The notes under the pieces were generated by a model, which did no database searches, had not been told where the DNA came from, and worked only from the letters and a program-made list of their open reading frames with translations. Of a stretch of 37,371 bases of DNA, positions 8,413-35,338 are shown piece by piece; position 1 is the stretch's first letter; each line of letters begins with the position of its first letter. Made by a program: the position numbers and the translations under genes. Source of the stretch: a virus; IMG/VR virus record IMGVR_UViG_3300029624_000036, positions 1 to 37,371 of that record, one strand, 5' to 3'.

Positions 8413-8892
8413 TTAGTTGTTTGAAATTTTGAGTTCTTCTTTAAGCTCGGCCAACTCAAGGTCAGCGTCAGTGAGGATGTCCTCGTCGATGTTGTTTTCA
8501 ACAGCGAATTTTCTTTCGGTTTCAGTAATCGTTCTGCCTTCAGGCGTAAGATTACCTACTTCTTCAGCAAGATCAAGGTCTCCCGCTTTCTCGTGACCGA
8601 GTTTTTGAGCAACTGCATCGAGACGAGAAGTAGCCGCGGTTGATTCTGCTTTGGCGTCAGTCAAGTCATTTTCAAGACTTGTGATCTTTTTTCCGTTTGC
8701 TTCCGCATTGGAAATAAGGTCTTGCACGGAGGTGAGAATAGCTTCATCATTCTCGGCTCCTTCGAACAATCCTCTGAGTTGAGTCAGGATTGGATTGTCG
8801 TTCTGCGAGAGCTTTGCTGTAAGATCAGCGATCTTCTGGTCTTTCTCAGCGACAATCGCATCGTGTGTGGATTTAAAAACTAGTCCTTTCAT
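8413..8892 (-). CDS. Scaffold-like coiled-coil protein
   Basis: 159 residues from MKGLVFKSTHDAIVAEKDQ; the ATG at 8890-8892 abuts the stop of the protease. Nearly all helix, acidic, with coiled-coil stretches (EKDQKIADLTAKLSQ, KKITSLENDLTDAKAE). Size, composition and place between the S49 protease and the capsid gene fit an assembly scaffold, which would be degraded by the protease during maturation. Confidence 0.72.
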   Translation of the reverse strand: MKGLVFKSTHDAIVAEKDQKIADLTAKLSQNDNPILTQLRGLFEGAENDEAILTSVQDLISNAEANGKKITSLENDLTDAKAESTAATSRLDAVAQKLGHEKAGDLDLAEEVGNLTPEGRTITETERKFAVENNIDEDILTDADLELAELKEELKISNN

Positions 8893-8894
8893 AT

Positions 8895-9824
8895 TTAGGG
8901 ATTGTTGGAATTTGCGTGGTGTAGTTCGAGACAACGAGCAACACATTCCTCCAGGGAAGCAATACCGTGAACCAATCCGAAGGCGAGAGCTTCGGTGCCG
9001 TTGAAGGTTTTCCCTGTGAACGCTTCGTCGTTTGTCATCGACGGACGACACATTTTTACGTGTGCATGGAAATGCGCGGCTTCAGCCGCAAGCATTTCCT
9101 GAATCGCCTCGGGCTTTCCTTGGCGAAGATCTTCTATGGGTTTGTTTTTGTCGGGGTTCTGCGGAGCATTGACATAGTGGTATTTGAATCCCACGGATTC
9201 AAAAAACGGGATAATGTCCAGGAAGGAGATTGCAGCTCCGATGCTTCCTGTGATGGTTCTGGCATGGTTCACGTAGCTTTCGGTTCCGCAAGAGCCGAGG
9301 GCTACCGCAGCTGAGCATCCCATTTTATTATAGTGGGTGATCAGCGGCTTTTGATCTTTGAAAGCAAGGAGCTTGTCGGTGATTTCATAGAGACCATAAG
9401 CAGATCCACCAGGTGATTCCATTGAGAGAACGACTCCTGCGATCATGGGATCATCAGCCGCAAGATCGAGAAGTGCCGCAATTTGAGTGGTGGTGATTGT
9501 GCCGTAGTATGGATCGTCAGTGATCAGACCATGAAGGCCAATGACCAAAACAGATGTTTCCCTGGTTTCAGGGAAAGGAGAATCGAAGGAGGTCATTTCA
9601 ATGAGACCATCTTCGAGCAAGTGTGCTAATTCAAGAATTTGTTTTGCTTCCTCATCCTCCTGGTACTTCGCGTGATCTTCTTCCGTTTGAATTCCTGTCA
9701 TGCCCAAAATGAAAGGTTGAGCGTGAAGTAGGTTCAGCAGGCAAGGTCCTTTTAGAAGTGGTGAAAGATGAAGCTGCGGTGTTTTCAAATTGAATCCTGT
9801 TGTTCGTTTGAACGCTGGATTCAA
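8895..9824 (-). CDS. S49-family (SppA/ClpP-like) capsid maturation protease
   Basis: 309 residues as drawn. Matches the phage S49 prohead protease pattern: VVLSMESPGGSAYG (about residues 131-144), the nucleophile in NKMGCSAAVALGS (Ser171), and the conserved ARTITGSIGA (188-197). It would cleave the scaffold and possibly the capsid N-terminus inside the prohead. The start is uncertain: the frame opens with TTG at 9824 and the first ATG is at 9701. The segment LLKGPCLLNLLHAQPFI resembles the family's conserved N-terminus, which favours the longer form. Confidence 0.88.
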   Translation of the reverse strand: MNPAFKRTTGFNLKTPQLHLSPLLKGPCLLNLLHAQPFILGMTGIQTEEDHAKYQEDEEAKQILELAHLLEDGLIEMTSFDSPFPETRETSVLVIGLHGLITDDPYYGTITTTQIAALLDLAADDPMIAGVVLSMESPGGSAYGLYEITDKLLAFKDQKPLITHYNKMGCSAAVALGSCGTESYVNHARTITGSIGAAISFLDIIPFFESVGFKYHYVNAPQNPDKNKPIEDLRQGKPEAIQEMLAAEAAHFHAHVKMCRPSMTNDEAFTGKTFNGTEALAFGLVHGIASLEECVARCLELHHANSNNP

Positions 9825-11371: not shown

Positions 11372-11671
11372 CTACTTCAGCTCCGTTCTACTCGCAAAGG
11401 CAAGTGTCTCTGGCACCAGCACAAGACCTGCTTTAAAGTATTGGGAGAATGCTTTCATAGCTGAAGGCCGATCAGCAAACTCATAAGCGGAAACGCTGTT
11501 GTCCGATTTACGGAGCAGCCAAAACAACCGACCGAATCGGTAGACCTTCTTTCCGTTGATATAATAAACGAAATCATCGGCTGTCGCTGGCCTTAACGGG
11601 ATAGTTGCTTTTGGCAAGTTCGAAGCACTCAGTGATTTCGAGGTATTTGTCAAGTCCTCTTTGGTAGTCAT
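11372..11671 (-). CDS. Last early-operon gene, unknown function
   Basis: 99 residues. The C-terminal two-thirds read as a compact domain (DFVYYINGKKVYRFGRLFWLL, DRPSAMKAFSQYFKAGLV). The ATG lies 98 bases inside the upstream gene; it is kept because the AAAACCCTTCAAT leader precedes it and no other ATG follows before the conserved-looking part. The gene ends in tandem TAG TAG, then a terminator. No family was recognised. Confidence 0.65.
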   Translation of the reverse strand: MTTKEDLTNTSKSLSASNLPKATIPLRPATADDFVYYINGKKVYRFGRLFWLLRKSDNSVSAYEFADRPSAMKAFSQYFKAGLVLVPETLAFASRTELK

Positions 11672-11885
11672 ATTGAAGGGTTTTAAGTTGGTCCATTAGT
11701 TTAATAATCTGCTCCTTGTGAGCTTCGATTACTCTGCCTGTGCGAATAATCTCCTGGTCGAGGAATTTATTCATGTCACCTGTGGCAATCATTTGTTTTC
11801 GCATGTGCCGAAGTTTGTAGCTCTCGCGACCATTCATGATCGCGGAGTACTTAGAAGGGGAGATCGTCTTGTTTTTCGTTGTCAT
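11574..11885 (-). CDS. Small coiled-coil early protein, unknown function
   Basis: 103 residues, basic N-terminus (GRESYKLRHMRKQMI) and a long helical region (IEAHKEQIIKLMDQLKTLQ). It starts 35 bases inside the end of the helicase gene and overlaps the next gene by 98 bases. The close packing suggests a co-expressed replication accessory protein. No family was recognised. Confidence 0.65.
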   Translation of the reverse strand: MTTKNKTISPSKYSAIMNGRESYKLRHMRKQMIATGDMNKFLDQEIIRTGRVIEAHKEQIIKLMDQLKTLQYDYQRGLDKYLEITECFELAKSNYPVKASDSR

Positions 11886-13158
11886 GTGTTATAGGGATTT
11901 GAGTTTGTGAATCGTCATCATCATCATTTGGCTCGATACTCGGGCGATCCAATGATTCATCATAGATCACGTCGAGATCCGCGAAGTCAACTCGTTTGAA
12001 CACAAACGGGCGACCAATAGCGGGTTTTCGAAGCACGTCCACGCAGAATTTCATTTTGGTGTTATTGAAATACTCGTGGATAACGGGGTATTCGTATCGC
12101 TTGCTGATGCTCTTACCATCTTTGGTAAGTCGTTTGACTCCGAGATTATCGCAGGATTCGTTGATGTACTTATGCTCGTATCTGCTGTTGCGGAAAAATT
12201 CCTTGGCGATGTCTTTGGTCGCCATGAGAATAGTATCTGCGGTCTTGTCGTACTCGAACATCTGGGAGATCTTCTCTTTGATCTCTTTCTCGATGGTCGG
12301 TTGGGAGTACTCGATAATTTTGTCGAGTGCTTCAGTACGAATGAGTGCAGTAGCAAACCAGGAACGGGATAAGTTCTGGGTAGCCATTTGGCGCTTGTCC
12401 AGGAAGTCAAGGAAAGCGGGAATCTCGTCATACATTTCATTCAAAAGGTGAGGGTTCTTCTGTTCAGCTGTGAGCTGTGGGATCTTTCGAACCCAGAAGC
12501 GGGTTTCTTCCTTGTCGGTATTGATGAAATTCTTTTCGTTGTTGGACATGAAAATGAATTTCCCGTAGAAGTCCATTTCCTTTTGATCTTTCCCCTTGCT
12601 GTTCATCATGATCTTGTCATTCGTTGCAAGGTTCTTGATCTTCTCCATGACAAGTTTTTTGTCGATCAAAACTTCCTCGCACATCACCAGGAGTTTAGTC
12701 GACCATGATGAATTGAAATCGTTCATCAGGTCAGAGTTTCCGACGAACACGGAATTCTGACCGAAGATTTCATACATGAGCTTCCCGAAGGTCGTTTTCC
12801 CTGTTTCTTTCTCATTGCTAACCAAGCAAAGAATCGGGAGCTTCTGCTTTGGATACTTGTAGAGCAATTGGATATAGTCCAATCCAAGCTCCAGCTCGTT
12901 GACCTTGGCAGGCTCCTTCGTCTTTGGGTGGAGATACTCGATTTCGTTGGTGCCGAATATGTGAATGAGAAAATTTTTGATGGAATTCCATTCGCCTTCT
13001 TCGCGCTCCGTCCATTTAAGTGGGAGATAGGTGTTGTAGCAATTGGAGATAATGGGTTGGTAGTCGACGTGATCGGGTACATTGCAGAAAGCATCGAGTT
13101 TGACGATGTGTTCGATGAACTCCTTGTGGTGATCTTCAATGATCGTGGCTTTGCTCCA
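11851..13158 (-). CDS. Helicase part of a primase-helicase, in frame after a TAG
   Basis: 435 residues in the same frame as the primase gene, directly after its TAG at 13159-13161. This is the SF3/D5-like ATPase of DUF5906-type phage primase-helicases: Walker A NEKETGKTT (about residues 115-123), then LVMCEEV and FIFMSNNEKNF (Walker B and sensor). It would unwind DNA for phage replication. There is no ATG before residue 128 (12777), already past the P-loop; the only common alternative start before it is TTG near residue 93. So the domain is probably made by reading through TAG, or the gene is disrupted. The C-terminus is acidic (DDDDD) and ends DDLPF, like the tip of bacterial SSB. Confidence 0.85.
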   Translation of the reverse strand, partial: WSKATIIEDHHKEFIEHIVKLDAFCNVPDHVDYQPIISNCYNTYLPLKWTEREEGEWNSIKNFLIHIFGTNEIEYLHPKTKEPAKVNELELGLDYIQLLYKYPKQKLPILCLVSNEKETGKTTFGKLMYEIFGQNSVFVGNSDLMNDFNSSWSTKLLVMCEEVLIDKKLVMEKIKNLATNDKIMMNSKGKDQKEMDFYGKFIFMSNNEKNFINTDKEETRFWVRKIPQLTAEQKNPHLLNEMYDEIPAFLDFLDKRQMATQNLSRSWFATALIRTEALDKIIEYSQPTIEKEIKEKISQMFEYDKTADTILMATKDIAKEFFRNSRYEHKYINESCDNLGVKRLTKDGKSISKRYEYPVIHEYFNNTKMKFCVDVLRKPAIGRPFVFKRVDFADLDVIYDESLDRPSIEPNDDDDDSQTQIPITHDNEKQDDLPF

Positions 13159-14283
13159 CTACTCCAGGACGCGATCTGTTACTCCATGTGGATTGGGTCG
13201 GTTAATCCACTTGTAGTAATCAGTCCCTACACGAACGTAGTCTTTGGTTTCTCGGGCAACGAGAATATCGCAGCGTCCGTTTTCCGCATTGTACTTGTAT
13301 TTGGTTCCGTTGTAGATGAACTCTTTGTCGCGGATCTTACCCTGGTGAAAGAGATAGAATTGATCTTGGTTCTGCAAGGCATACCATTGTCGGACGTGAT
13401 CCAATCGGTGGGTCACGTCGAACTTATGGAAGTAAGAACAGGAAAGAGAGCTTTTGTTAAGCTCGTTGCGGATCTCATTGCAGCGTTCTTCAAAGATTTT
13501 TTTGTGCAGTCCTTGAAAGTGAACATAGAGATCGTCGAGTCCTTTCGGATCTCCTTCGATTTCGTCGCTTTTGATTGAGGCATAGAATATGCCGACACCG
13601 CGGTAATCTTCAAAGAGTTTTTTGATGTTCCAGATCGTTCGGTAGAAACCGTTCGGTCGGGTATAGAGATCGACGTCAGGATTCTCTTCGGGGAATTTGC
13701 GAGTGAGGCGACGACAGTCACCGTCATGCAGCCAGAGAACATTTTGAACTTTGCAGACCTTCATTATCTCTTTAACATCATAATGAAGTTCATGGGTGTT
13801 GGAGTCTTTGAAGTGGGTGATCGAAGGAAGCCCGATAATGTCGAGGCCGTGCAGATCCCCTTTTGCAGCTTTGAAGGCTCCCTCAGTAAGCACCAAAGTC
13901 TGAATGGTTTTTTTGGCAGCAAATTTCTCAACGAGTCCAGGAGGAATGAACGGAGCTGTACCACCGCCTCGCGGTATTCGGTAGCGGATTTCGTTTCCTC
14001 TTTTGTCGATGGTGCCTGGTATGTGTCTGATCTGATGGTACCGAGTTGAAGATTTGGAGCCAGGCTTTTTATAGACTGCGTATCTCCCTGTTCTCGTGAA
14101 GTAATTGATGCGAATGCTTCCGTCATCTTCTTCTTCGAACACTTTATGTTCTCGGATCTCGTCAGGTTGTTCTGATTGAGTTGAGGAATGCTCCCAGTAG
14201 CGTTCGCGGATGATGTAAGATTCGGGATCTATCCCGAGCTCTTGCATTCTTTTCTGAAAGTAGGATAGTGCGGGTTGGTTCAT
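13159..14283 (-). CDS. Primase (TOPRIM-like) part of a primase-helicase, ends at TAG
   Basis: 374 residues. TOPRIM-like features: TLVLTEGAFKA (129-139, acidic residue Glu134) and NVLWLHDGD (181-189). This would synthesise RNA primers for phage DNA replication. The protein continues in the same frame past TAG into the helicase half; the sequence on both sides (HGVTDRVLE, then WSKATIIEDHHKEF) is what intact family members show as one chain, so the TAG occupies an amino-acid position. It overlaps the upstream 67-residue gene by four bases. Confidence 0.85.
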   Translation of the reverse strand: MNQPALSYFQKRMQELGIDPESYIIRERYWEHSSTQSEQPDEIREHKVFEEEDDGSIRINYFTRTGRYAVYKKPGSKSSTRYHQIRHIPGTIDKRGNEIRYRIPRGGGTAPFIPPGLVEKFAAKKTIQTLVLTEGAFKAAKGDLHGLDIIGLPSITHFKDSNTHELHYDVKEIMKVCKVQNVLWLHDGDCRRLTRKFPEENPDVDLYTRPNGFYRTIWNIKKLFEDYRGVGIFYASIKSDEIEGDPKGLDDLYVHFQGLHKKIFEERCNEIRNELNKSSLSCSYFHKFDVTHRLDHVRQWYALQNQDQFYLFHQGKIRDKEFIYNGTKYKYNAENGRCDILVARETKDYVRVGTDYYKWINRPNPHGVTDRVLE

Positions 14284-15741: not shown

Positions 15742-16053
15742 ATGAAGTTTTCCAACCTCAGAAAATCCAGAAAAAGGGCTGATCTCACCTTGCAAGATGT
15801 GGCAGATGAGCTTGGATATTCTGTGAGTGGTTACAGTAAAATTGAAAGCGGTGTGACCAACCTTTTGGCCGAGGATGCTATGAAACTTTCAAAGCTCTTT
15901 GGCGTGACCGTCGATGAACTATTGACGGAGGAAAAACCCAAACCAACAATTCAGGATGTTCCCAATGTGATCTTGATCGGGGACGTGAAGAAAAACACAC
16001 CTGAAGGTGCTCGTTTTTTGGAGAGACTTAACGATCTGTTAAGAGGAGAATAA
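15742..16053 (+). CDS. XRE-family phage repressor
   Basis: 103 residues. The N-terminal helix-turn-helix is clear: LTLQDVADELGYSVSGYSKIESG (about 15-37), then a short tail (LERLNDLLRGE) that may dimerise. No protease-type C-terminal domain is present, so induction would not be by LexA/CI-style self-cleavage. It is the rightward member of a divergent pair with the Cro-like gene and is followed by a hairpin and a terminator. It is the likely lysogeny repressor, binding the TTGTC-type operators around it. Confidence 0.9.
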   Translation: MKFSNLRKSRKRADLTLQDVADELGYSVSGYSKIESGVTNLLAEDAMKLSKLFGVTVDELLTEEKPKPTIQDVPNVILIGDVKKNTPEGARFLERLNDLLRGE

Positions 16054-16344: not shown

Positions 16345-17502
16345 ATGGAATTTGGAAAAAGGATTTCAGTGGAAACAAGAACTCATGTTGAATACATACC
16401 AGCGAAGTTGACCGAAGGGAAAGTTTGGTTCGTTTCGTTTTATGCTTGGGACCCAATCCAGCATAAATTAAGGAGGAAACGAATCAAGCTGATGCGAATT
16501 GATGGCGTAACGGCTCGAAGAAAGTTTGCTCATGAAATGATTCGCAAGATCAACCGAGATTTAGAAAATGGTTGGTCCCCCTGGACAGAGCAGCTCGCAC
16601 CGAAAGGGCTTCACAAATTATCGGATGCGTTGGAGACGTATCTGGAGAAGAAACTAAGGGAAGTTGACGGGCTGAATTCTGCCCGAACTTACAAGAGTGC
16701 CGTGAAGCTCTTGAAGGATTGGATGCTGGCAACGAATCGCATGGGTATGTATGCCGTTGACTTCAAGAAGCGAGATGCCCAGGCATATCTCGATTATTGT
16801 ATAGAGGTGAAAAATCTGAGTGCCACCACCAGGAACAATCGTCTGACGATCTGCAAAGCGATGTTCGGATGGTTACAGGAAAGAGAGTATATCAATACGA
16901 ATCCTTTCCGAAACATTCACAACCTGAAGCAAAAGGAGAAAATCCGTCAAGTGATTCCCGATGAAAAGAGGGAGGCGATCAGGCAGTACTTAATGGAGAA
17001 TGACCGAATGATGCTCTTGTGCTGTTATCTGATGTTTTACACTGAGATCCGACCAAGCGAGCAAGTGAGGCTAAAGGTGTCGAATCTTGACCTGGAGCGT
17101 GGTATTATCATGGTCCCTGGTGAGGCCGCCAAGAACTCGAAAGTTCGGGTGGTCACAATTCCGACTCCTTTTAAGGCATATCTACACCAATTTGATTGGG
17201 GGCAATATCCTCCGAACTATTACTTGATCGGCAAGGGTTGGGAGCCGAACAAGGATCAGCTTCATCCGAAGCTAATCAGTTCCAAGTGGAAAATCATACG
17301 GAGAGAAGTTGGGCTTCCGATGAAGTATCAATTCTATTCGTTGAGAGATTCGGGCATCGTCTGGATGCTTCAACAAGGGATCAGTCCCGAAGAAGTGATG
17401 AAGCAAGCTGGACATGGGAATTTAGCCATGACCACTAAATACATCAACCATTCCGTTCGGGGAGCTGTGGATAGCATTCGTGATTTGTCAGGTGGTTTTT
17501 AG
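16345..17502 (+). CDS. int: Tyrosine recombinase (phage integrase)
   Basis: 385 residues. Catalytic layout: first Arg in TEIRPSEQ (Arg236), a lysine in AKNSKVRVV (262-270), box II FYSLRDSG (Arg334, with Tyr331 where many have His), GHGNLAMTTKYI with His357 and the nucleophile Tyr366. A SAM-like core-binding domain precedes it (LSDALETYLEKKL at about 92-104; TYKSAVKLLKDWM at about 115-127). The His-to-Tyr variant of box II is common in Bacteroidota recombinases. The repeats right after its stop (17517-17595) are the natural place for attP. It would integrate and excise the phage genome. Confidence 0.93.
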   Translation: MEFGKRISVETRTHVEYIPAKLTEGKVWFVSFYAWDPIQHKLRRKRIKLMRIDGVTARRKFAHEMIRKINRDLENGWSPWTEQLAPKGLHKLSDALETYLEKKLREVDGLNSARTYKSAVKLLKDWMLATNRMGMYAVDFKKRDAQAYLDYCIEVKNLSATTRNNRLTICKAMFGWLQEREYINTNPFRNIHNLKQKEKIRQVIPDEKREAIRQYLMENDRMMLLCCYLMFYTEIRPSEQVRLKVSNLDLERGIIMVPGEAAKNSKVRVVTIPTPFKAYLHQFDWGQYPPNYYLIGKGWEPNKDQLHPKLISSKWKIIRREVGLPMKYQFYSLRDSGIVWMLQQGISPEEVMKQAGHGNLAMTTKYINHSVRGAVDSIRDLSGGF

Positions 17503-17596: not shown

Positions 17597-20554
17597 TCAA
17601 TTTCGGGAGATCATTGTTCGGGAAATGTTTTCATCCTCCCGATCATTGAATCGATTCAGATCCTCCTTTGAAAGAATCACCTGTTGATTCCTCTGAGAAG
17701 CTATAATGTTAGAACCAAGTAGCCTGATTTCAGATATAAGCGGATTGATGTCTAACGAGCTTGGCGCGTCATTGAGGATCTGTTGGCTTTGCCTGAAAGT
17801 CAAACCGTCATTGATTGCTGAGAAGTTTGGTTGTGGAACGGGTTGAGCGAAGTTTCTTGAAGCATTCAAGAGCTGAGTGATCTCCGCAGGTACAACCTGT
17901 GAACCGAGCGGGAGATTGACTTGCTCCCTTCCCTGGTCTCCGACAACTGCCGAACCACCAAAGAAGCTGGTTCCTTCTGCGAACTCAGGTGGTGGAGGCA
18001 TTTGAATTGGTGGGATCAGTGAATCAAAGAGAGCACTAACCGCAGCTCCTGCGAGTGCTCCAGTCAATATTCCAAGTGGTCCGAACTTGGCAAGTTCTTT
18101 TGCAACCACGGCTGCAATGGCTTGGTTGATCTGTTCTTTGATGATAGAGCGAAGGGTTTGCATGACGGCAATCGCAGCTTCGTGTTCGTTCTGAGCTGCC
18201 TCAACCGCAGCTATTCCCCGCATGAATGCGCTGTTTACAGCAGCTTCAGCGGCTCTGCGTCTCCAATCAATTTCCTGTTGGATTCTTTTCTCGTCTTTCT
18301 TGTGAAGTTTTTCCTTGACCTGATCTTCTTTTTTAGCGGCATTGATTTTCAGCTCCATGAGCTGAATCTCGGTCTGAGCTATTTCGCGATCAATGGCAAC
18401 GGTGTCTTTTCCGAACCGCTCCATGGCTTCTTTCTCCATGAGCAAATAGGTCAGTTTGATTCCGAGCTTTTCTTCTTCAAAGAGTTCAGCTGAAATGAGC
18501 TGTTCCGCTCGATGCTGTTCCAGGTAGAGCATTTCAGCATCCGCAGCTGCTTTGATTTCATCAAGTGCAGCTTGAACGGGATCTGTTGCTTCCGTGGTTG
18601 AAGTGCCTTGCCCTGTGGGTCCTTGGGCTGCTTGGACGGGATCGGGCGTTACTCCACCAGAGGAAACACCGCTCCAAACATTGTCGATCATTTCAGCCAA
18701 CTCAGGATATTCTTCTTTGAGTTGTTGAACCATGTCGAGGTTGTCTTTTTTGACTTGGTTGAGTTCATCGACTGCAACGCGAGCTTCACGTTGTTCGCGG
18801 GAGAGTTCATTGGAGGCTACGGCAAGATCAGAAAGGAAGCGTGCTTCATCATTGGCGGGAGTGGTGATACCCGAAAGTTGGTTCATGTTATAGGCAGCAG
18901 TCTCACCGAGACCGTCGAGAGCTTCCTGAATACTGCGGTACGAAGTACCGAGGTTTTGATTTGCTTCTGCAAGAATCCCATTGGCTCTTATTTGCGCTTC
19001 GAGTTCCTCTGTTTTTTCATCGGCAGCATCTTCGGCAGCTTCCTGGAGACGTTCTTTTTGTTTTTGGAGCATGATCTCGATGAAGAATTGTTGGTTGACC
19101 GCTTTCATAGCGGCTTCGAGTTCATGGTATGAAGCTGTTTCTAGATTGATATTGGTAAGCCTGGCACCGTATTGGGATTGAAGTTCTTTAATGATCTTCA
19201 ATCGGTTTTCTTCGGTGGTATTGGTGTCCATCAATGTTTGCATGAGACCGTTGAAAGAACGTCTCTGTTTCTCGATTCCTTCGGAAACAGGTACTTCGAG
19301 GAAATTCTTGAATGACTTGACGGTATCTTTTACAGCGTCATTGAGAGCGGAGCTTACCCAAATAGCATTCAATCGCTTTCCTATTTTTTCAAGATCACCC
19401 GCAAGGGTGTTGTTTTTCACTGAGAATTCTGTGGTCAATGAAATGCCTTCATCAAACGCTCTGTTTGCCAGTGTTTGTTGTTCGCGTAGGAGCTTGGTAT
19501 TTCCACCAAGGGCTGCGAGTACTTGAATGGCTCGTGATCCATTGATACCGAGCTGATCAAACTTTTGGGTAAGAACTCCAAGACCTTCGTTGTTTCCAGC
19601 GAGTCCTTCCAGGAATAAAAGGAAGGCTTCATTGGCATCGGTTTCGAGCAAAGAAGAGAACTCACTAAGCTCTACGCCAGCTACCTTGGCGTAAGTAGCG
19701 GTATCATCAAACATTCCTACAATGGCTTGACTAATGGCTGTCGAGGACATTTCGGTTCGTTGGCCGAGGCTGTCAAGGGTTGCCCCCATAGCTGCGATCT
19801 GATCAACGGTGATTCCCGATTGAGAACCGATTCCCGCAAGGCGGCTGGTAAAGCCGACGATATTGGCTTCAGCGGCTTCGGAGCTTGCACCGAGCTCGTT
19901 GATGACAGAACCGATTTTGAGCATTCCCTGTTCATAGCCGAAGAGTTCTGAAGTTCCGAAAAGGTTGTTGAGTTTACCGATGGTTTTAATGGCATCGTCT
20001 CCGAGATCCTCCCCAAGAGCTACATCAATCTGATCTGCTGCTTTGACGAAGGCAGAAAGATTTTCCACTCCTGTGATTCCGAGTTTACCCGCATCACGAG
20101 CCAGCTCGAGTAGTCGGGTTCTTGAAGTTCTGGTGTCGATCATTTTGAGGCTTGCGCTCAAAGCTCGAACACCTTCGTCCGTAAGCCCTGTGGTTTTTCT
20201 GACGTCTGCAAAGGAATCGGAGAGTTTGGCATTTCCGTCAATTACGTTTTGTCCGAAGGCGACGAGGCGCTGTAAACCTTCCTGGACGACCATTCCAGCA
20301 CCGACACCAATGGCAGTTGATTTAACTGTCTCCCAGGAACGGTTCACGCCTCGAATCTTCTGTCGGTGCTGATCAAGAACTTTGTTCAGTCTGCCTAGTT
20401 TTTTGGTAGCCTCATTGTATTCCTTTTGGGATAACGTGCTCCGATTGATATAGGAATTCAAGCGACGAACTTCGGAGCGAATTTCCGAGATGGACTTACG
20501 AGCGTTTTTGCTGTCAACGTAAAGATTTACGTACCGATTTTCAGTTGCGGACAT
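17597..20554 (-). CDS. Phage tail tape measure protein (TP901 type)
   Basis: 985 residues. The N-terminal region is coiled-coil (LSQKEYNEATKKLGRLNKV), followed by the conserved tape-measure core (FADVRKTTGLTDEGVRALS, ISQAIVGMFDDTATYAKVAG, GINGSRAIQVLAALGG), a long helical part with hydrophobic stretches (LGILTGALAGAAVSALF) and a C-terminal domain. It sets tail length and forms the inner tail filament. Proteins of this family are usually encoded near baseplate genes; here it is the last gene of the leftward tail operon, ending next to repeat locus B. Confidence 0.92.
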   Translation of the reverse strand: MSATENRYVNLYVDSKNARKSISEIRSEVRRLNSYINRSTLSQKEYNEATKKLGRLNKVLDQHRQKIRGVNRSWETVKSTAIGVGAGMVVQEGLQRLVAFGQNVIDGNAKLSDSFADVRKTTGLTDEGVRALSASLKMIDTRTSRTRLLELARDAGKLGITGVENLSAFVKAADQIDVALGEDLGDDAIKTIGKLNNLFGTSELFGYEQGMLKIGSVINELGASSEAAEANIVGFTSRLAGIGSQSGITVDQIAAMGATLDSLGQRTEMSSTAISQAIVGMFDDTATYAKVAGVELSEFSSLLETDANEAFLLFLEGLAGNNEGLGVLTQKFDQLGINGSRAIQVLAALGGNTKLLREQQTLANRAFDEGISLTTEFSVKNNTLAGDLEKIGKRLNAIWVSSALNDAVKDTVKSFKNFLEVPVSEGIEKQRRSFNGLMQTLMDTNTTEENRLKIIKELQSQYGARLTNINLETASYHELEAAMKAVNQQFFIEIMLQKQKERLQEAAEDAADEKTEELEAQIRANGILAEANQNLGTSYRSIQEALDGLGETAAYNMNQLSGITTPANDEARFLSDLAVASNELSREQREARVAVDELNQVKKDNLDMVQQLKEEYPELAEMIDNVWSGVSSGGVTPDPVQAAQGPTGQGTSTTEATDPVQAALDEIKAAADAEMLYLEQHRAEQLISAELFEEEKLGIKLTYLLMEKEAMERFGKDTVAIDREIAQTEIQLMELKINAAKKEDQVKEKLHKKDEKRIQQEIDWRRRAAEAAVNSAFMRGIAAVEAAQNEHEAAIAVMQTLRSIIKEQINQAIAAVVAKELAKFGPLGILTGALAGAAVSALFDSLIPPIQMPPPPEFAEGTSFFGGSAVVGDQGREQVNLPLGSQVVPAEITQLLNASRNFAQPVPQPNFSAINDGLTFRQSQQILNDAPSSLDINPLISEIRLLGSNIIASQRNQQVILSKEDLNRFNDREDENISRTMISRN

Positions 20555-23174: not shown

Positions 23175-25943
23175 CTAAATCGTTCGGGTTGAAGTTATGG
23201 TGAAGGCGAGATTGGAGCAGCCTGAATTGTTTCGGATCTCAACGGAGATATCCTGATTTACGGCAAAGGCATTATCGCTGCCGTGAGCTACTTCGGAAAG
23301 CGTTGACGTAACGGAGTTTGGACCATCGCCAAGCGGTGTTCCATTGATAAAGACTTCAAAGTCGCACGTACCTGAATCGCAGATTACAGCTACGTTGACA
23401 ATGGTTCCAGCGTATTTGGTAACGGGTTTAAGAAAGAACGAGCTGTCGGTCGGAGTTTCAATTAAGCCGAACCAATCTTCGGTAATGCTTTTACTACCAG
23501 AACCAGTTTTTGATCCACCAAGTCCAGATCCTGAGTTGGATTTGGTGAGTCCGCCAGATTTGGATTTTCCTGTTTCCAGGGCAATGCTTTTAGTCGGGAC
23601 ATCAGCTGTGACGAGTTTTCTGAATTCGGCATAGTAGAGCTCCGACTTTCCGAGGTTTCGCGAATAGCGAATCGGAAGGAGAGGATTGGCGTGGTATCGA
23701 ACGGCTTGGTTGAAGAAATCTTCCAGGCTAAAAGGCGGTGAAAGGTCAATGGTGAACTTATAGATTTCCTCTCTGATCAGCGAAGGAATGGTATGTCGGT
23801 AAACCTTCTGGTAGTTTTCCGACCAGAGCATCGAGGGAATAGCTGCTGATAGACCTTCGGGATCTAGTGGTACTGAATTGCAAAATCGGTAACCGATTCC
23901 AAGCGTATTGTTATAGAATGTAGCTCCTACATCATAACAGACAAGCAGCGATCCTCGTTCACCGCTGGGATTGAACATCGAGCTTCTTCCTTCTTCGTCG
24001 AGAACAGGAGCCAAATATTCACCTGTATTGGCATAGAATCTTCTTAATGGAAGCGGAGTAATGGCAGGGGAAATCTGTTGGATTTCTCCTTTGTCATTTG
24101 CTTCAAAGGTATTCCAGGCATAGCCACCGAATTCCCAATAGAGTGAGCCACCATCGAGGAAATCGTATTCCTTGGTGAAGTAGTAGGCGTTCTCGTTTCG
24201 AACGAGAATGTATTTGTTGGCAGAATTTGGTGGTGGCAGATCGCGTGCCTTATCTACTGCTGGCATTTCTTCAAATCCTCCCAGGATTTCGAAGTTGTTT
24301 GTGCTTGGATAATTGAATCGAAAGCGTTTTTCAGCGCGAAGCTCTGAATTAAGATCGGAGGTGATTAATTCATCAATCGGTTCATCGGATTGTTCGAGAT
24401 ACGTTGAATCGGCATAATCGAGAGAAAGTTCTTTATTGAGTGGATTGAAAATGATTCTGAGATTCTTCCATTGGCGAAGTGCCATAAGGAATTCACCAAC
24501 AGACATGGCGGGAGCGTGATCTGCGTAGCGAACGTTCCCGTCGAAGATATTGACGAAGTCAGTTTCGACGTTGGTGATCTTGAAGTCGAGTCGGTCAATG
24601 GTAAGAGTTCCGACACCAGCTCCAGTACCGCTTATGGTGCCTGTTAGTTTTATCGTATCGCCAGCGACCAGGTCAAAATACTCTAGTTGATTTTTTTGAC
24701 CGTCTGTATTATCGGAAACAAATACTCCGAAGGTAGGAGTGAAGCCAATCACTGAGCCGTTTCTTCGGATCGTGATGACAATGTTGGGATTGCCACCGCC
24801 AATCGTTGTGTATTGCATGAACAGCTCCAAGAGGTATCTGCCTGTTTCGGGAACGGTATATTCTGTTCCATTCCAATGGTCTCCATCATCCTGATAGACG
24901 CCAGTATCGTTTGGTAGCGATACGTCAGTTACGGCCCATGGTGATGGATTTATATTGGTGTTTCCAACATGAATGTGATTCGGATGACCAGAATCTTTGT
25001 CCAGGGCAAGATTTGATTGAAAGAACGCTTTGTGTTCTTCGGTGTCATCCATGAATTCTCCTACGGCCTTATATCCGATTCCTTCGGCAAGATTTCGAAC
25101 GATGTCGTGGATCTGGATATACGGAAGGAAAGCATGGCGATTGATCGTATTGGTTTCCTCGTTGTAGGAGTCATTGATGTAGAAAGAACCTACGTTTTTC
25201 GGTAGGTTCATGATTCCAGGAAAGATCGGTTTCCATTTGGTGGGTTCAGCTGCGGGGCTTTCTGTTATGGCAACATCATCTTTTGCCTCGAAATACATCA
25301 GAGGTGCAGCATGTGGAGAAGCATACAGCAAACCTTCTTGACTCTCCAGGTAGCGAAAGAGGACCACTTCACCCGTTTCGTAAGTACGATCTGGATCGTA
25401 GTTGGAAAAATCGGGCATCCAATCCTTATTCTCGTCGCCATAGAATTCCGTGGCGAGAGTGGGAAAAAACTTGACGGTTGTGCCTGTGATACCGTCAGGG
25501 CTTGGTGTGTTGCCATTAAGAGTTTGAGCAAGTGTTGCAATGGCCTGGGCATTCCCACCGAGAATAACCACTTTATTGAGTGCATCGGAGAGCTGAAGAT
25601 CATTGATATTCTCTGCGAGCAAGTTGGTGAAGAAGTCGCAGACGTATGAACCGACCTGTTTTTTGATCTGTGTTTCAACGATGGATAGAACACCGATCAC
25701 CAGAAGCTCACCATCCTGGAAGATTTTGAAATCTTCAAAAAGCACTTCTTTTTCTGCGATTTCGACAGATTCGAGGAAACCGAAAACAGTCATGTTGTTC
25801 GGTGTCATCGGCAGACTGACATTCATCTGAAAGTCTCCGATTCGAATATTGTCGTCGTACAAAGGAGAATGAACCTGGAGCTGAAGGTTAAAATTCTTCG
25901 GGAGGTCAACGGGTTTATCTTTTACGGTAGCAGAAAAAGTCAT
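23175..25943 (-). CDS. Large tail/baseplate protein (probable tail-tip hub)
   Basis: 922 residues, no membrane segment. The beta-rich N-terminal part (FNLQLQVHSPLYDDN, DFQMNVSLPMT) resembles tail-tip/hub-like proteins; the middle has many aromatic beta strands (YYFTKEYDFLDGGSLYW) and the C-terminus a Gly/Ser-rich linker (SGGLTKSNSGSGLGG) followed by a small beta domain ending ITSTRTI. It lies between two tail proteins in the tail operon. Its stop is TAG, three bases before the next ATG. A baseplate hub or tail-associated lysin-type protein is the best guess, by location. Confidence 0.6.
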   Translation of the reverse strand: MTFSATVKDKPVDLPKNFNLQLQVHSPLYDDNIRIGDFQMNVSLPMTPNNMTVFGFLESVEIAEKEVLFEDFKIFQDGELLVIGVLSIVETQIKKQVGSYVCDFFTNLLAENINDLQLSDALNKVVILGGNAQAIATLAQTLNGNTPSPDGITGTTVKFFPTLATEFYGDENKDWMPDFSNYDPDRTYETGEVVLFRYLESQEGLLYASPHAAPLMYFEAKDDVAITESPAAEPTKWKPIFPGIMNLPKNVGSFYINDSYNEETNTINRHAFLPYIQIHDIVRNLAEGIGYKAVGEFMDDTEEHKAFFQSNLALDKDSGHPNHIHVGNTNINPSPWAVTDVSLPNDTGVYQDDGDHWNGTEYTVPETGRYLLELFMQYTTIGGGNPNIVITIRRNGSVIGFTPTFGVFVSDNTDGQKNQLEYFDLVAGDTIKLTGTISGTGAGVGTLTIDRLDFKITNVETDFVNIFDGNVRYADHAPAMSVGEFLMALRQWKNLRIIFNPLNKELSLDYADSTYLEQSDEPIDELITSDLNSELRAEKRFRFNYPSTNNFEILGGFEEMPAVDKARDLPPPNSANKYILVRNENAYYFTKEYDFLDGGSLYWEFGGYAWNTFEANDKGEIQQISPAITPLPLRRFYANTGEYLAPVLDEEGRSSMFNPSGERGSLLVCYDVGATFYNNTLGIGYRFCNSVPLDPEGLSAAIPSMLWSENYQKVYRHTIPSLIREEIYKFTIDLSPPFSLEDFFNQAVRYHANPLLPIRYSRNLGKSELYYAEFRKLVTADVPTKSIALETGKSKSGGLTKSNSGSGLGGSKTGSGSKSITEDWFGLIETPTDSSFFLKPVTKYAGTIVNVAVICDSGTCDFEVFINGTPLGDGPNSVTSTLSEVAHGSDNAFAVNQDISVEIRNNSGCSNLAFTITSTRTI

Positions 25944-33991: not shown

Positions 33992-35338
33992 TTAGACTGT
34001 GGGGTTCTTGCACCATCTGATCATGACTGTGCATAGCATTGTATTGGCGGGATCTCCTGCGTCAAATGCGCCCTTGACTATTATATTCCCGTATGCTGCG
34101 ACACGCTGGTTGAAGCCGTAATTAGATCGAGTGGTGTCTTCATCGAATTCCAACGATCCGAGAGTGTTACTAAATCGTCGAACATCAAGATCACCTACTG
34201 CTTGAGATGCGGTTTCGGCCATGACGGATTGAATGTATACATCTCGGGTGAATCGGTAATAGTTTTGGGAACTGTGAGCTTGGAGTTGTTGATTAGTTAG
34301 AGGGTTGAGAGGGCTGAAAAATTCTAATCTGAATTCAGATAAACTGAGCCATAAGTTAGCAATGGGGTCCCAATAGTAAGCGGTTCGATCAAGGATGAGA
34401 TAAGCGAGCTGGTAAGGGTCGGGGTTGCTGGGTAGAATACTGTAAGGGGGAATTGCTGAGGGTCCAGCGGGTCCTTGTGGGCCAGTGGGGCCTTCTGCTC
34501 CAGCGGGTCCTTGTGGGCCTTCATCACCGACAAGATTTATTTGCCTTACCCAGTCACTTCCATCCCATACCCAGAGATCTCCATCGCGCGTGTCGATGTA
34601 TTGTGAATTGGGTACGGCTGGTGGGGCTGTCGGCATGCCGTCACCGTTGAGGAATTGCGCTCCAGGGTCACCTTGCGGTCCTTGAGGCCCAACGGGTCCT
34701 TCAGGTCCTTGCGGTCCAGGCACGGTACTATCAGCTCCAGCGGGTCCAGCGGGTCCTTGTGGTCCAACGGGTCCTTCAGGGCCAGGTACAGTACTATCAG
34801 CTCCAGGATCACCTTGTGGTCCTTGTGGGCCAGCTGGTCCTTCAGGTCCTTGCGGTCCAGGCACGGTACTATCGGCACCAGCTGGTCCAGGATCTCCTTG
34901 AGGTCCTTGTTCTCCAGCGGGTCCTTGTTCTCCTTGTTCTCCTTGCGGTCCTTGTGGCCCAACGGGGCCTTGTGGTCCAGCTGGTCCTTGTGGTCCTTCA
35001 GGGCCAGGTACAGTACTATCAGCTCCAGGATCACCTTGCGGTCCTTGTGGGCCAGCGGGTCCTTCAGGGCCTTGTGGTCCAGGTACCGTACTGTCAGCTC
35101 CAGCGGGTCCAGGATCACCTTGCGGTCCTTGTTCGCCTTGCGGACCTGTATCGCCAGGATCTCCTTTGTCACCTTTTGGTCCAGGTAGTCCTTGTTCACC
35201 ACGAAGAATGTCTTCAACGTTGATGTTGACGACTTCTGAGGATTCTTCAATATTCAGAGAAACTTCCTCGGTGGTTTCGTTGACAGAGATTTGAACCGTT
35301 TCAACGGTTTCATCGACTTGAATATTGATCAGGCTCAT
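33992..35338 (-). CDS. Collagen-like tail fibre
   Basis: 448 residues. A short beta-rich N-terminus (about 1-46) leads into Gly-X-Y repeats (about 47-227 and 271-293), interrupted by five copies of [10 protein letters not shown] small aromatic module ([15 protein letters not shown], about 252-266) splits the two parts. The C-terminal 150 residues form a non-repeat head, which probably trimerises and binds the receptor. Such proteins form long trimeric fibre shafts. It overlaps the next gene (35335-35679) by four bases. Confidence 0.85.
34460..35200 (-). repeat. Collagen-like tandem repeats in the fibre gene
   Basis: Gly-Pro-rich coding repeats, with five near-identical units around GADSTVPGP (residues about 80, 105, 154, 179 and 201). 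Strong repetition allows unit gain or loss by recombination, so fibre length may vary. Confidence 0.85.

Follow-up and report, generated by a model that had tools for sequence, protein, structure and literature searches.

A single in-frame TAG in a phage primase-helicase gene, most likely a recent mutation or a sequence error

The phage described here appears to encode its primase and helicase in one gene, which is interrupted by an in-frame TAG. This stop most likely stems from a recent mutation that cripples the gene, or else from an error in the sequence, and not from a built-in switch. The best single explanation is a recent nonsense mutation, to which we give a probability of roughly 60%. 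The window (the whole stretch of DNA analysed) is 37,371 bases long and comes from a linear virus record that it covers in full. On its minus strand, an ATG at 14283 opens a frame of 374 codons (13162–14283) that stops at the TAG (13159–13161, codon 375 of the read-through frame), past which the same frame stays open for another 435 codons (11854–13158) to its true end, a TAA at 11851–11853. Stops make up 3–4% of the codons in the frames of this strand, at which rate the odds of 435 consecutive open codons are negligible, and the run encodes DUF5906 (PF19263, 1.8e-21). The initial annotation, made from the sequence alone, had given these same coordinates and had described a helicase continuing in frame for 435 codons beyond the stop; both statements held.

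When the TAG is read as a residue, the frame gives one protein of 810 residues, in which a DnaG-type (TOPRIM, DUF3854-like) primase core is followed by an NrS-1/D5-like SF3 helicase. The DUF5906 match of this product is strong and its DUF3854 primase match is weak, below the Pfam cut-off. In the predicted structure (mean pLDDT 77), model residues 3–314 match DnaG catalytic cores (Z about 12) and residues 343–662 match the C-terminal region of NrS-1 (residues 308–619; Z 18.4), with the SaPI5 primase-helicase and poxvirus D5/E5 as the next matches. The helicase has the parts of an NrS-1/D5-type SF3 enzyme, namely a DUF5906 AAA+ core with an intact Walker A region (SNEKETGKT, residues 489–497, 12793–12819, minus strand) and a D5_N-like N-terminal part, and the NrS-1 match places the start of the module at about residue 343. 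The fused protein has no CHC2 zinc ribbon, and none turned up in the neighboring small genes scanned. On the model, the TAG does not fall between domains: it cuts the helicase module about 32 residues past its start, within a predicted beta strand of the N-terminal hairpin (residues 369–376, 13156–13179, minus strand). The upstream part would accordingly hold the whole primase core (residues ~1–342) together with the opening 32 residues of the helicase, and the downstream part the rest of the SF3/AAA+ helicase. The helicase ends (11854–11890, minus strand) in an acidic ...DDLPF tail, which presumably resembles the C-terminal tip of SSB; fused relatives mostly end similarly, in ...LPF or ...F.

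Is the interruption a feature of the family? The closest architectural counterparts are fused DUF3854-like primase/DUF5906 helicase genes in genomes and phages of Bacteroidota (L095, L112, L113 and L136–L144), which share with the window gene the order of the domains, the length (~770–846 codons), the motifs and a ...PF-type tail, but are uninterrupted, with a sense codon at the position of the TAG. The same holds for all 18 fused homologues that genome and virus searches recovered from Bacteroidota genomes and from virus contigs (two of which, L112 and L137, look identical at the TAG region): like the window gene they have a primase core and a helicase with conserved motifs in a single frame, but in these loci nothing interrupts the frame over its 769–846 codons, and the residue aligned with the TAG is R, K, A, P, G or V. 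Over the roughly 78 loci that cover this column, which include helicase-only genes and a few duplicates, the residues are R (25), P (14), K (13), A (10) and a few others, with no stops. Nine of the 18, all from viruses, align with the read-through product over the full length at 31–43% identity, and near relatives pass through the site without a gap (RVLE, the stop and WSKATI in the window versus RQFHAWDKGTI). The view that this is one fused gene with a single TAG, continuous in family members, is thus upheld, and the alignment at this codon that the initial annotation had called for returns sense residues throughout. Helicase-only relatives do exist (frames of ~400–437 codons), and they include a YIRVGT segment that itself lies upstream of the TAG, so there is no natural gene boundary at this point. 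With the fused relatives uninterrupted, the TAG inside the helicase module and the helicase-only relatives starting upstream of it, the split is not characteristic of the family and does not coincide with a natural boundary between genes. These alignments show that the family architecture is fused and that the stop is unique to the window copy among the homologues compared. Viral contigs scanned with one protein at a time, namely either half or the putative terminase (954–2633), yielded no relative above 50% identity, and no further copy came up with a degenerate DNA pattern spanning the TAG. Used alone, the primase half also leads to loci of Bacteroidales in which the helicase half differs too much for BLAST.

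Interior stops are found elsewhere in the family, in three of the ~78 loci, all of them helicase-only relatives: L101 has a TGA at a conserved W (about 1585–1587), L178 a TGA at W642 and L157 a TAA near 647. Close relatives of both L101 and L178 keep the W. The L101 stop lies one codon after the TAG column and was considered as a recurrence of the same site; this was rejected, since relatives up to 89% identical retain the W, making it a private nonsense mutation. (Apparent stops in L145, L148, L161, L165 and L173 turned out to be at positions upstream of helicase-only gene starts.) Other homologues are frameshifted or truncated (L158, L161, L163 and L165). Together, the sporadic stops and the damaged copies indicate that isolated losses of this gene are nothing unusual in the family, and the window TAG fits that background.

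The sequence beyond the TAG has kept its constraint. Of columns that are otherwise invariant, the window breaks 2 of 45 in the helicase half versus 3 of 35 in the primase half (leave-one-out), its helicase-to-primase identity ratio of 1.07–1.29 is not below that of the relatives (mean 1.13), and the family tail is still matched by its final residues, DDLPF. By these measures the helicase half shows no decay, which means that the lesion is recent, erroneous or suppressed. The absence of decay does not single out a recent mutation, however, since it would also be expected under maintained readthrough or suppression. It also fits an error of base calling or of the consensus in a metagenome assembly, in which case the true gene would be an intact fused primase-helicase. 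Such an error is possible, if somewhat unlikely: the record is a linear virus contig of the IMG/VR type and the lesion stands alone in an otherwise intact genome, but there is no homopolymer at the TAG, and isolated substitution errors are rare in assembled contigs. That no other gene in the window is visibly broken also counts against a mutation. (A second disrupted gene was suspected at 8413–9824 and dropped, since this region holds an intact gene for an S49 protease and, after it, an ordinary gene with an ATG start.) Because no second sequence of this phage was found, mutation and consensus error are not separable.

Could the TAG instead be put to use? In functional readthrough or suppression, either leaky termination or a host amber suppressor tRNA would yield primase alone plus the fused enzyme. 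The upstream product would hold a complete primase core, the helicase half is constrained to its last residues, and TAG is rare as a stop, ending 3 of 48 listed frames including the primase-helicase frame itself. But programmed readthrough, the option that the initial annotation had named first, is not supported: no fused relative, all of those compared being at most 50% identical, has a stop at or near codon 375, the column is variable, and the stop cuts a strand of the helicase fold, not a linker. Pseudoknot-free folding of the sequence 3' of the TAG was no better than that of shuffles (z −0.6 and −0.03), and the window has no Rfam hit. The proposed search for a suppressor tRNA, as far as the phage is concerned, returned no tRNA in the window, a linear record that may be incomplete. 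Literature searches brought up nothing on readthrough in such primase-helicase genes. On balance, functional readthrough or suppression is unlikely, and it is more doubtful still that a phage-specific switch setting the ratio of primase alone to primase-helicase has newly arisen in this lineage. General recoding had been judged unlikely at the outset, and that judgment stands, given a single in-frame TAG in ~11,160 codons, the lack of a tRNA in the window and the use of TAG as a real stop at 11372, where it occurs as a tandem TAG TAG, and at 23175. (The tandem stop ends a small gene, 11375–11671, with no family match.) In TAG-recoded (code 15) crAss-like phages, recoding affects many genes and coding density (PMC9523058); the window resembles them in having an in-frame TAG in a phage gene, but a single codon is involved and TAG also serves as a stop.

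A truly split gene, in which the primase ends at the TAG and the helicase has its own start, is very improbable. No ATG occurs before codon 128 of the downstream run (12777), as had been noted, but it was too strong to conclude that an intact ATPase could not come from any ordinary start: a TTG at 12880–12882 (minus strand), codon 93 after the TAG, is a permitted bacterial start and the first in-frame codon of the ATG/GTG/TTG type past the stop, and it precedes Walker A. Further TTG codons (12867 and 12825) and CTG codons also lie before the Walker A lysine, and a non-canonical codon such as ATC 13143 could be invoked. Helicase-only genes in relatives offer a precedent, but they contain the YIRVGT segment. 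A start at 12882 lies past ~93 codons of conserved helicase sequence and would cost the module ~125 residues. Among those lost would be the FCN.P and H.FG residues, which do not vary in the ten aligned proteins.

A nonsense mutation or sequence error, which were also among the options first listed, is left as the best fit. The gene would then be a single primase-helicase, with a DnaG-like core and an NrS-1/D5-like SF3 helicase but without a zinc ribbon, broken by one isolated and recent nonsense codon. Read literally, this allele would make only a primase core with a 32-residue helicase stub and no ATPase. We infer that a mutation, and not an error, lies behind the lesion and that the gene is inactivated by it; the copy in the window has probably lost the ability to replicate itself, as a prophage or a minority genome may. 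An integrase (16345–17502) and a CI-like HTH protein (15742–16053) mark the phage as temperate, and a resident prophage could tolerate such a lesion. If it is a mutation, this is one more sporadically inactivated phage replication gene, and a caution against annotating the gene as two genes or as a case of recoding. Were readthrough true, it would be an unusual phage means of setting the ratio of primase to helicase.

The helicase shares a common fold with that of the NrS-1 primase-polymerase (PDB 6k9c, 6lrb; Z 18 over residues 343–662) at 16% identity, but the N-terminal half of NrS-1 is a PrimPol (PMC9611036), whereas that of the window protein is a DnaG-like core. The C-terminal part of the poxvirus D5/E5 helicase-primases is a related SF3 module, with a D5_N-like hairpin and a DUF5906 AAA+ core (Z about 13), but identity is ~15% and the primase half is a different one. 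A related DUF3854 primase domain is found in the 1020-residue primase of a gut Bacteroidales phage (MT835542, L002; 5341–8403) and its kin (L010–L089). In L002 it is fused with DUF5906 in one gene, as in the window, but L002 has a CHC2 zinc ribbon that the window protein lacks, and the helicase half of this group has no BLAST match to the window helicase. The DUF3854 primase domain is thus paired with at least two helicase types, a distant DUF5906 together with CHC2 in the gut phage and an NrS-1-like helicase without a zinc ribbon in the window, which suggests module exchange.

The phage is siphovirus-like and probably one of Bacteroidota. It also encodes an S49-type head protease, a tape measure protein (17597–20554) and a putative terminase (954–2633), named by similarity to the annotated terminase of Microcystis phage Mea-Yong924-1; Flavobacterium phage laban6-1 is likewise similar. 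The putative terminase and tape measure protein are 38–41% identical to those of Mea-Yong924-1 (L008). Neither the primase half nor the helicase half has a BLAST match in the Mea-Yong924-1 genome, and judged by these comparisons the two phages have related structural genes and different replication modules. A collagen-like repeat protein (PF01391), possibly a fiber protein, is encoded at 33992–35338.
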